Positions 38,599-40,180 of a DNA stretch of 40,180 bases are shown piece by piece. The stretch is from the NCBI RefSeq assembly GCF_900188425.1, contig NZ_FZON01000048.1, positions 1 to 40,180 on the forward strand, read 5' to 3'. Position 1 is the first letter of the stretch; each line of letters opens with the position of its first letter. The notes under the pieces are model-generated. The model saw nothing but the letters and a program-made list of their open reading frames with translations. It made no database searches and was not told where the DNA came from. The position numbers and the translations under genes were made by a program. Origin of the DNA: Antarctobacter heliothermus (lineage in GTDB: Bacteria > Pseudomonadota > Alphaproteobacteria > Rhodobacterales > Rhodobacteraceae).

Positions 38599-38616
38599 CT
38601 GTCCACGCGTGGACAG
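38599..38616. repeat. Palindrome CTGTCCACGCGTGGACAG, copy 2
   Basis: This is a perfect 18-bp palindrome 14 bases after the preceding stop codon. Its core is shared with the imperfect palindrome at 826-841. It is followed by CCCCC..GGGG and an AT-rich patch. Confidence 0.65.
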
Positions 38617-38682
38617 ATTCCCCCCCGTTAAAAATCAAGGGGTTACAGAGGCGGTTTTACCTGCGCTTAACCTTTGACCGGC

Positions 38683-39027
38683 TCAGAGGCCGGGACAGAT
38701 ATAGACGATGGTCAGACCCGGACCGGCCAAAGCGATGGCGTAGCTGGTGCCGGTCTCGCCTGAAAAGGGCACGGGCTCAGGCTCACTGCTGGGGGCGGGA
38801 CCAGGCAGGATCTGCCCCGCGCTGGTACGGATGACGATCGCGCCGGGTCCAAGGTTATAGAGCGTCCATGTATGCGCCGGCGCGTTCATCGGGATGGACA
38901 ACGCGGGATCGTTCAGATCATGACCAAGGCATTCCTGCGGCTGCGCGGCCAGAGGGGCGGCAACGGGGCCGACCAGGGCCATGACCAGCGCCGAGGTGGA
39001 CACCAAGGATGTGCTTTTGCGGAACAT
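38683..39027 (-). CDS. Exported hypothetical protein (114 aa)
   Basis: It has a signal peptide MFRKSTSLVSTSALVMALVGPVAAPLAA and a short mature region beginning QPQECLGHDLNDPALS. A Pro/Ser-rich loop (GPAPSSEPEPVP) and a C-terminal IVYICPGL complete it. Two cysteines, in ECLGHD and YICPGL, could form a disulfide. No family is recognised. ATG 39027 is set by the signal peptide. Confidence 0.7.
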   Translation of the reverse strand: MFRKSTSLVSTSALVMALVGPVAAPLAAQPQECLGHDLNDPALSIPMNAPAHTWTLYNLGPGAIVIRTSAGQILPGPAPSSEPEPVPFSGETGTSYAIALAGPGLTIVYICPGL

Positions 39028-39143
39028 GCGAGACTCTCCCCCCGTATGGGATGCGGAGAGTAGTGCGTTGCGGCTTGGGGGGCAATGATGGGGAGGGGGC
39101 GTGGTTTCACGGACCATTAACCCTCTTTGGGCGAGGATGGCGC

Positions 39144-39728
39144 ATGTCCCGCTACATCCGTCCCAAGGTTTCCGGCGCGCGCGTGTTCTTTACGGTCACT
39201 CTTGTGGACCGTGGAAGCGACTCATTGGTGCAGGAGGTTGACCTCTTGCGGGATGCGGTGCGCAGGACGCGGGCCGAGCGGCCATTCGAGATCGAGGCTT
39301 GGGTGGTCCTGCCGGATCACCTGCATTGCATCTGGCAGATGCCTGCGGGGGACAGGGCGTATGGCCGACGATGGGGGGCAATCAAGGCGCGGTTCACGAT
39401 GGCGGTGCGGGAAAAATATGCCTCTGATGATGGGTGTAGGCCGGGCTTAAGCCCGGCTTACCCAAAGATGCCAAGTGAATTGCCCGTTGTTCGGTCTGGG
39501 CGGTTTGCCGGGCTGAAGCCCGGCCTACGGGAGACCAAGCGCGAAGCGGCTGTTTGGCAGCGGCGGTTCTGGGAGCATCATATTCGGGACGAGGCGGATT
39601 TCGCGGCGCATCTACGGTATTGTTGGATCAACCCGGTGAAGCATGGGTTGGTCGAGCGGGTTGAGGATTGGCCGTATTCGTCTGTGCATCGGGATGCGCG
39701 GTTTAAGGCGGGGATGGATTTGGCATAG
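39144..39728 (+). CDS. REP-associated tyrosine transposase (RAYT, IS200-like HUH nuclease)
   Basis: The 194-residue protein is of the Y1 transposase (COG1943) type. MSRYIRPKVSGARVFFTVTLVDRG opens the fold. The metal-binding HUH is H59-L-H61 in LPDHLHCIWQMP. IKARFTMAV, VWQRRFWEHHIRDEADFAAHLRY and CWINPVKHGLVERVEDWPYSS are the diagnostic late segments; the catalytic tyrosine may be the one in RYCW. RAYTs nick REP hairpins that start with GTAG. Residues 98-129 are encoded by two REP units lying inside the gene (39436-39461 and 39503-39528). The frame remains open across them. The gene is AT-neutral and follows a GGCGAGGATGGCGC leader. Confidence 0.88.
   Translation: MSRYIRPKVSGARVFFTVTLVDRGSDSLVQEVDLLRDAVRRTRAERPFEIEAWVVLPDHLHCIWQMPAGDRAYGRRWGAIKARFTMAVREKYASDDGCRPGLSPAYPKMPSELPVVRSGRFAGLKPGLRETKREAAVWQRRFWEHHIRDEADFAAHLRYCWINPVKHGLVERVEDWPYSSVHRDARFKAGMDLA
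39436..39461 (+). repeat. REP unit 1 inside the RAYT gene
   Basis: GTAG is followed by the perfect palindrome GCCGGGCTTAAGCCCGGC and TTAC. It is read in the sense direction of the gene and encodes part of RPGLSPAY (residues 99-106). Confidence 0.85.
39503..39528 (-). repeat. REP unit 2 inside the RAYT gene, inverted
   Basis: On the minus strand it reads GTAG then GCCGGGCTTCAGCCCGGC then AAAC. It faces unit 1 across 41 bases, forming a BIME-like inverted pair. In the RAYT frame it encodes AGLKPGLR (residues 122-129). Confidence 0.85.
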
Positions 39729-39750
39729 GTGCGTGATTTCACGCACCTAT
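39725..39750 (+). repeat. Hairpin ATAGGTGCGTG-ATTT-CACGCACCTAT
   Basis: Perfect 11-bp arms with a 4-base loop overlap the RAYT stop codon (TAG 39726-39728). It may double as the transcription terminator. Confidence 0.75.
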
Positions 39751-39764
39751 GGATGCGGCGGAGT

Positions 39765-39784
39765 GGTGCGTGCGAGCACGCACC
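39765..39784 (+). repeat. Hairpin GGTGCGTGC-GA-GCACGCACC
   Basis: Perfect 9-bp arms with a 2-base loop share the GGTGCGTG/CACGCACC core with the hairpin at 39725-39750. It therefore belongs to the same, second repeat family. Confidence 0.7.
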
Positions 39785-39847
39785 TGACGCTTGCTGGGCT
39801 TGGATCAAAGTTCAATTGATTTCTTGATCACTTTTTCATCTTCGACG

Positions 39848-39863
39848 GGCTTTGTTGCGCAAA
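39848..39863. mobile_element. Terminal inverted repeat of an IS5-family (IS903-group) element
   Basis: GGCTTTGTTGCGCAAA matches the style of IS903-group ends (GGCTTTGTTG). It marks the inner edge of the element that continues off the right side of the window. The other end is not visible. Confidence 0.7.
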
Positions 39864-39901
39864 GTCGGTAACGTCCGGAGTTCCCCTTTCCCCGGACGCA
39901 A

Positions 39902-40180
39902 TTATCCCACAGGCTCTGTGACGGGTATGCCGAGCGCGGTGTAGCCGTTGAGCACGGCGGCGCGGATCTGAAGTTCGGCGACCTGACGATCGAAGTCGCG
40001 CGCCATGAGGCTCTGCCCCAGCAGCTTCACGCAATGCATCTTCGTCTCGGCGCGGCTTCGTCGGTGGTATCCGCTCCATTTTCTCCAGATGGCGCGGCCA
40101 AGGTATTTCGAAGCGCGCAGCGCCTCGTTCCGAGCGATAGCCCCTGCAGTCGATGGCTTCCACGGCTTGGCATTCTTGCG
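39902..40180 (-). CDS. IS5-family transposase (IS903 group), C-terminal 92 residues
   Basis: The minus frame is open from the window edge to TAA (39902-39904). It reads RKNAKPWKPSTAGAIARNE, ALRASKYLGRAIWRKWSGYH, RRSRAETKMHCVKLLGQSL, and MARDFDRQVAELQIRAAVLN. The final GYTALGIPVTEPVG is typical of this transposase group. The catalytic DDE glutamate is likely the E in RAETKMHC. The N-terminal part lies outside the window, so intactness cannot be judged. It is 38 bases inside the terminal repeat. Confidence 0.92.
   Translation of the reverse strand, partial: RKNAKPWKPSTAGAIARNEALRASKYLGRAIWRKWSGYHRRSRAETKMHCVKLLGQSLMARDFDRQVAELQIRAAVLNGYTALGIPVTEPVG

Follow-up and report, generated by a model that had tools for sequence, protein, structure and literature searches.

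An inverted pair of REP units embedded in frame in a RAYT gene of Antarctobacter heliothermus, and a loop that may join REP reader to REP target

The REP-associated tyrosine transposase (RAYT, or TnpAREP) gene of Antarctobacter heliothermus carries an inverted pair of genuine GTAG-headed REP units that is translated in frame, and the protein loop encoded there is, on balance, probably a specificity module, exchangeable between RAYTs, by which the stem of the REP is read and which, in this branch of the RAYTs, holds a cognate REP pair as well. The gene lies near the end of the window, the whole stretch of 40,180 nucleotides that was analysed. Palindrome search places unit 1, GTAG+GCCGGGCTTAAGCCCGGC (GTAG followed by GCCGGGCT, TA, and AGCCCGGC), at 39,436–39,457 on the forward strand and unit 2, GTAG+GCCGGGCTTCAGCCCGGC (GTAG followed by GCCGGGCT, TC, and AGCCCGGC), at 39,507–39,528 on the reverse strand. 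Both units lie in the open RAYT frame and together span residues 98–129; the complement of unit 2 codes for AGLKPGLR, and the spacer between the units (39,458–39,506, forward strand) encodes LPVVRSGRF in its 3′ part. The stems are perfect and 8–9 bp long. The pair is the longest inverted pair listed for positions 38,600–40,180, with 27-nt arms that are 89% complementary and 39 nt between the arms, and it folds as one long hairpin (z of −5.7 as DNA and −5.1 as RNA, with 0 of 200 shuffles as stable). Its palindrome core has two exact matches in the window, whereas dinucleotide shuffles average 0.44 matches at up to three mismatches and 3 of 100 reach two. The window gene and that of a relative with 94% protein identity (L043) differ at 49 of 582 bases, none of which lies inside the two REP units. 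The in-frame pair described in the first-pass annotation is thereby confirmed as a real observation.

The gene occupies 39,144–39,728 on the forward strand (as do all features of it given below), encodes 194 amino acids, and ends in a TAG stop at 39,726–39,728. It was identified by its match to the NF047646 profile, REP_Tyr_transpos (E 7.1e-51 over profile positions 1–146); the protein scores 171.9 bits against a cut-off of 80 in this curated NCBI model for REP-associated tyrosine transposases, and 12.8 bits with Pfam Y1_Tnp, under the 23-bit cut-off of that model. The NF047646 family has one match in the genome, that is, a single RAYT at low copy number. The HUH motif D58-H59-L60-H61 is encoded at 39,315–39,326, with H59 and H61 invariant in 26 aligned rows, and the Y---NP motif takes the form Y159-CWI-N163-P164, in which Tyr159 (39,618–39,620) would be the catalytic tyrosine by homology (PMC6006769). 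The closest solved fold to the AlphaFold model (47 sequences; mean pLDDT 82.8) is TnpAREP 4ER8 (Foldseek E 1.6e-16), which is also the only sequence match in the PDB.

The REP-bearing insert sits between helix αC (model residues 73–93; 39,360–39,422) and the segment W138–R148 (39,555–39,587). Residues 78, 79, and 82 of the helix covary with stem base 8, and the E. coli equivalent of αC is described as contacting the REP, position 82 being the place of the REP-contacting residue K82 (PMC8266576). By alignment with E. coli TnpAREP, W138–R148 would be the GTAG-reading equivalent: residues W94, Q95, E100, H101, and R104 of the E. coli protein, placed near or at the GTAG motif by PMC6006769, correspond with equal spacing to W138, Q139, E144, H145, and R148. 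Five residues before W138, and outside the REP units, lies R133 (39,540–39,542), the predicted reader of stem base 7; a positional claim for R133 at the DNA from the AlphaFold model was ruled out, as residues 98–133 fall under pLDDT 50.

REPs lying in frame within tnpAREP genes have been published before, a point absent from the first-pass annotation: Quentin et al. (2018; PMC6006769) describe them as unique to subclass 2.4, and note that some members of subclasses 2.7 and 2.8 bear a REP insertion. The same source judges the subclass 2.4 insertion domain, between β3 and αC, to be peripheral, considers that such insertions may affect activity little, and places the short αC–β4 insertions of subclasses 2.2 and 2.6 close to the REP-recognition region. 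The window gene shares with subclass 2.4 the presence of REPs in a tnpAREP gene, but holds them in a different loop, from αC to the GTAG-reading motif; in place of the other subclass 2.4 traits (NH[IFV]H, a β3–αC insertion, and no tail), it has DHLH, an insertion after αC, and an SS tail motif. Carriers of the window type differ from subclass 2.4 in the same DHLH and SS tail motif, and in belonging to the Rhodobacteraceae and their kin. The hallmarks of subclass 2.2 are DHLH, YIHYNP, an SS tail motif, and a 10 aa insertion between αC and β4 (PMC6006769). The window protein has DHLH, YSSVHRD, and an insert after αC, yet also YCWINP and an insert of about 50 aa, and its perfect stems depart from the mostly long, bulged REPs of that subclass; on these motifs it is called 2.2-like only. 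As in E. coli TnpAREP, the subclass 2.2 REPtron (4ER8), the HUH motif, the Y---NP motif, and the GTAG-reading residues are conserved; unlike in that system, where the REPs are bulged and about 3 residues stand at the place of the insert, the window has perfect stems and about 50 residues.

The window pair also resembles GTAG REP dimers, or REPINs, in being an inverted pair of GTAG palindromes, and dimers with heads out and with heads in have both been described (PMC3733652); GTAG REPs and REPINs are, however, mostly intergenic, whereas the window pair sits within the enzyme's own gene. PMC3733652 reports in-frame intragenic REPs in unrelated genes as well as the flanking REPs of RAYTs, and cites the Rickettsia palindromic elements as palindromic repeats that are translated in frame. 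Unlike the window REPs, the Rickettsia elements occur in many unrelated genes. To our knowledge, they have neither a cognate enzyme nor a residue–base relation.

At up to one mismatch, the window unit has 14 distinct sites in the 5.17 Mb genome, self-palindromic sites being taken once, and 12 of these lie outside the RAYT gene. A reversed-pattern control gives 0 sites in each of 80 genomes at the same threshold, and at up to three mismatches gives 3 sites in the window genome in one count and 1 in another. The dispersed sites were also looked at for coding status, with ORFs as the sole criterion. With its GTAG head, its palindrome, and its repetition in the genome, the window unit has the features of a GTAG REP family, and is a real but modest one; the palindrome is not so rare as to disqualify it, though it recurs at only 12 sites elsewhere. 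The tnpAREP genes are "often" flanked by REPs (PMC6006769), and the strict definition of a RAYT has two inverted REPs delimiting the gene (PMC2817692). The window gene departs from the latter: no GCCGGGCT-type REP flanks it within 400 nt, and downstream there are only GGTGCGTG hairpins, which have an ATAG head. It is accordingly filed as TnpAREP, following PMC6006769 and NCBIfam, and not as a strictly flanked RAYT; its motifs, GTAG-reading residues, model score, low copy number, and dispersed cognate REPs are features that would place it among the RAYTs of class 2 TnpAY1.

The downstream hairpins form a second inverted palindrome pair, of the GGTGCGTG type, at 39,724–39,787; the pair starts at the RAYT stop, with the TAG stop within its ATAG head. 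At up to three mismatches, this type occurs at only one other place in the window genome (C141), and by the residue–base rule set out below it would go with another kind of RAYT (SHxxRQERG). Further along, at 39,902–40,180 on the reverse strand, an open frame truncated by the contig end may be the last part of an insertion-sequence transposase gene.

Embedded REPs recur well beyond this genome. Among relatives, 40 of 147 have a RAYT homologue; in the family the count is 129 of 394 genomes, and in the order 169 of 390. In all, 208 HMM matches gave 205 aligned sequences (3 were too short) and, once identical genes were removed, 188 distinct ORFs. With hairpins called at a head with no more than one mismatch, a stem of at least 7, and a loop of at most 6, 52 of these ORFs carry two GTAG-headed hairpins in the same loop, 28 carry one, and 108 carry none, so that REPs of differing types are embedded in 80 of the 188. 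The carriers are genomes of the window family, or contigs titled Rhodobacteraceae, Rhodobacterales, or genera taken as such, with the title of one (L173) giving Alphaproteobacteria only. Of 29 further loci, 17 were parsed, 15 of these loci belonging to other families of the class and two (L325 and L327) to the window family; at the settings of the flank-only scan described below, none of the 17 has an embedded or flanking GTAG hairpin. Three arrangements were distinguished by pattern in 96 of 125 ORFs, 29 being left out: heads out in phases 2/0, heads out in phases 2/2 (with the hairpin one base longer), and heads in. Heads out is the geometry of types A and C and heads in that of type B, and single units also occur. 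Some loops (L046, L048, L073, L087, and L168–L170) contain hybrid pairs, with GGCGGGCT as unit 1 and GCCGGGCT as unit 2.

This diversity bears on the suggestion that the arrangement is autoregulatory, with the RAYT binding its own REP pair in the single-stranded gene or transcript, or with an mRNA hairpin slowing translation, and the level of RAYT being limited in either case. The single long hairpin into which the window pair folds would suit such a role, but the variation among heads out, heads in, and single units, together with the 108 ORFs that embed no REP, makes autoregulation improbable.

At the place of the insert, the loop measures 19–20 aa in beta- and gammaproteobacterial relatives, and these short loops, like the few residues of the E. 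coli protein, identify the segment as a derived insertion. The first-pass annotation had held that REP-less homologues sharing residues 98–129 would reduce the resemblance to REPs to a codon-level coincidence; the segment proved to be absent from such homologues. A single ancestral insertion followed by vertical inheritance was rejected, as the state with or without insert needs 31 changes on a tree of RAYT cores, a weak tree (185 genes with distinct and long enough cores, 132 of them with a REP) in which 24 of 182 inner branches are starred and 90 are open. Just upstream of one insert-less RAYT (L070, 1,338–1,450), three tandem GTAG-headed GTCGGATGC repeats share one open frame with the RAYT.

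Within the loops, the hairpins far exceed what the encoded peptides would bring about. Across 78 loops, 126 exact-GTAG hairpins stand against 0.08 expected under synonymous recoding with the codon usage of RAYT cores, and as many hairpins as observed arise in 10 of 23,400 recoded loops; the cores of the 188 genes contain 1 GTAG hairpin. Covariation was assessed in rows selected on the motif xGxxPx[LV][RP] of the peptide rather than on hairpins (51 distinct of 76 genes, with a false motif match, L139, left in), and in loops picked in this way 94.7% of stem cells pair over 33 rows and 95.1% over 18 rows. At stem pair 4–19, the 33 rows comprise 12 GC, 10 CG, 9 UA, and 2 unpaired, and the arms thus covary. 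Tested in two registers, the covariation score is reached by 0 of 500 shuffles; the pairs changed on both sides are not exceptional (129 and 140 of 500 shuffles are as high), and the number of pair types is not above that in shuffles (495 and 500 of 500 are as high). These comparisons show that the hairpins in RAYT loops are conserved as DNA. The idea that the peptide xGxxPxLR is by chance encoded by palindromic DNA could draw on the presence of this motif in many loops (76 genes), but the recoding result and the compensatory changes in the arms led to its rejection, and its probability is very small.

The peptide, too, is under constraint. In 23 loops of the window kind, the nine spacer codons have a pS of 0.74 and a pN of 0.175, with the peptide LPVVxSGRY, whereas the REP-coded AGLKPGLR has a pS of 0.13 and a pN of 0.03; from this difference it follows that the spacer is kept as protein and that the REP unit is kept as DNA too. 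In loops of this kind, the peptide between and after the REP units is shown by these substitution patterns to be, as far as sequence can tell, conserved as protein. Recent transfer as the sole cause of loop similarity was also discarded, given that synonymous sites in the spacer are saturated.

On these grounds, the earlier proposal of a REP insertion tolerated in a variable loop stands as regards the insertion and falls short as regards mere tolerance, which is too weak to account for the conservation of the spacer. It also fails to explain the fit between loops and the REPs of their genomes (40 of 45 genomes; 15 of 16 genes) and the residue–base rule, both described below. A stronger form of the proposal, in which a RAYT acting close to its own gene leaves cognate REPs in the single loop able to take them, where they serve no purpose in the protein, is unlikely, though it has several points in its favour. 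The loop is modelled at very low confidence, as disorder would be; at least two geometries occur (heads out in types A and C, heads in for type B); the embedded REPs are of the cognate kind that insertion in cis would yield; and in-frame REPs are reported in unrelated genes (PMC3733652), with subclass 2.4 insertions perhaps of low impact (PMC6006769). Such selfish insertion is countered by the conservation of the spacer LPVVxSGRY and of the tail KRE in the 23 loops with saturated synonymous sites, and by the occurrence of similar loops on cores that are just 45%–55% identical. The lone GTAG hairpin in 188 cores also speaks against it, although loss of damaged genes could give the same result, and it does not predict that genes without embedded REPs would obey the rule linking loop position W-5 to stem base 7.

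The embedded REPs match those dispersed in the genome. Four REP types were counted in 80 chosen genomes, of which 45 have an embedded unit of one of the four types, 23 have a RAYT without such embedding, and 12 have no fetched RAYT; copies flanking a RAYT gene were counted as outside the loop. Outside the loop, the embedded type ranks first among the four tested types in 40 of the 45 genomes (the exceptions being G003, G070, G079, G247, and G431), compared with a mean of 12.1 and a maximum of 23 in 10,000 permutations. A flanking GTAG hairpin is present in 106 of the 188 genes, and of 50 genes with embedded as well as flanking units, 43 have the same first six stem bases in the two.

Loop identity is 0.61–0.65 within REP types and 0.39–0.41 between them, across core identities from 0.45 to 0.70, although the REP-coded stretch itself accounts for part of the identity within types. 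For the six non-REP residues that end the loop, a same-type partner is found in 54.6 of 80 cases, compared with 38 for the core and 14.9 by chance. A mosaic is seen in the pair L072/L164, whose DNA identity ahead of the loop is 0.80–0.89 in five windows of the core and 0.67 in the one over the gene start; past the loop it is 0.82–0.98, yet inside the loop it falls to 0.44–0.73. For 16 genes whose nearest core belongs to another embedded type, a comparison made without L098 (a gene cut by the contig end), the main REP of the genome is predicted by the loop in 15 and by the core in 2. These results show that the loop behaves like a module that is passed between RAYT cores, and that the dispersed REPs of a genome follow the loop rather than the core.

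The relation between loop and REP extends to single residues and bases. In genes without an embedded REP, most loops ending in SHxxRxER pair with GGTGCG stems, and SKxxKxE loops with GGTGGG or GATGGG stems. In a residue-by-base scan that took in every well-filled column of the core and the nine final positions of the loop, W-5 (R133 in the window) leads for base 7, with 0.92 of 1.70 bits, W-9 for base 5, and residues 79 and 78 for base 8. Restricted to 57 flank-only genes, the scan leaves W-5 barely ahead of residue 79 for base 7 (0.60 vs 0.56 bits), with W-9 then W-6 for base 5, and 79, 78, then 82 for base 8. Of 68 genes with Gly-Ala (GA) at 78–79, 67 have T at base 8; of 24 with RL there, 22 have G. 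In the first set, Arg at W-5 occurs with C at base 7 in 43 genes, Arg without C in 3, C without Arg in 0, and neither in 89; in the same order, the counts are 22, 0, 0, and 56 for embedded genes and 21, 3, 0, and 33 for flank-only genes. That flank-only genes obey the rule implies that REP embedding is not needed for reading.

The W-5/base 7 rule was fixed before being applied to a held-out set of 79 ORFs, drawn from the same order as the first set and partly from the same genera. Twelve duplicates of the first set were dropped, and 51 of the remaining 67 genes were scored (13 lacked a REP and 3 lacked a Trp in place), with near-identical genes of related genomes kept. Here, the counts were 22, 2, 0, and 27 (p 1.8e-12), 49 of the 51 genes obeying the rule, and in the flank-only part 12, 2, 0, and 10 (p 6.7e-5). 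The secondary rule linking His at W-9 to C at base 5 held less well, with 13 genes having both, 1 His only, 4 C only, and 33 neither. Exceptions to the W-5 rule are L130, L146, and L152 (the last of which has mixed flanks) in the first set, and L254 and L304 in the held-out set; among the 17 of 20 loci (L224–L243) looked at in addition, it is also broken by L238 (Arg with T at base 7, the stem having one mismatch) and by the Pseudomonas relative L243 (Gly with C at base 7). Within this sample of genes, W-5 thus predicts stem base 7, W-9 and W-6 go with base 5, and residues 78, 79, and 82 go with base 8.

Joint descent might produce such correlations with no contact at all, loop residues and REP types simply travelling together in lineages; coevolution of RAYTs and REPs has been reported (PMC2817692), and relatives share both traits. 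This explanation is rather doubtful. On the weakly resolved core tree, at least 24 changes are needed for Arg at W-5 and at least 21 for C at base 7, and independent pairs on starred branches go the same way in 6.8 of 7 cases and the opposite way in 0 (median p 0.016); flank-only pairs (4 starred, median p 0.125) are too few to stand alone. The columns leading for base 8, position 82 included, lie on αC, the helix whose E. coli equivalent contacts the REP, and the core is a poor predictor of the REP where loop and core disagree.

The preferred reading is of the segment as part of a REP-reading loop, which lies between αC and the GTAG-reading motif and in which W-5, W-6, and W-9, with helix residues 78, 79, and 82, may touch the stem and set the choice of REP. 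Because the DNA of the loop also bears the REP pair, exchange of the loop would move reader and target together, and the benefit of embedding might be that a retargeted enzyme obtains its first substrates in cis. The fuller proposal is more tentative, with prospects a little short of even: that the choice of REP by a RAYT follows a residue-to-base code spread over αC (78, 79, and 82 for base 8) and the loop before the Trp (W-5 for base 7; W-6 and W-9 for base 5), and that the loop is a cassette, at once the reader part of the gene and its target, such that one recombination would both retarget the enzyme and supply its first targets. This reading covers one order of bacteria, in which the correlations are strong, and from which we infer the contact and the benefit. 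A literature search (including PMC3686654, PMC3116915, and PMC8049555, with few subscription papers and no supplements) found no report of REPs in the αC–β4 loop and, within the same scope, none of RAYT loop exchange or of a residue–base rule; for group 3 RAYTs, contacts with the REP are treated as speculation only (PMC8266576). The rule makes testable the question of how each RAYT recognises its own REP family only. If the loop is a cassette of reader and target, it would also explain the replacement of REP families, which would otherwise require a simultaneous change in the enzyme and in its dispersed targets.

Several genomes combine RAYTs and REPs in other ways. In G003, the RAYT gene L050 (contig C216, 81,609–82,306) embeds GGTGGGTTT units, and its flanks and 40 counted genome sites are of the GGCGGGGT type; the loop may have been exchanged recently, with the former REP population persisting in the genome. 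The GGCGGGGT type (23 copies) and two GGTGGG types (18+12 copies) occur in genomes G008 and G010, in which no RAYT was found with the window protein; either orphan REP families or a distant RAYT may be involved. The highest count among the 80 genomes, 191 copies of the GGTGGGTTT type, belongs to G023, and the RAYT fetched from that genome (L062) has a short SH-type loop and a GGTGCGTG flank.
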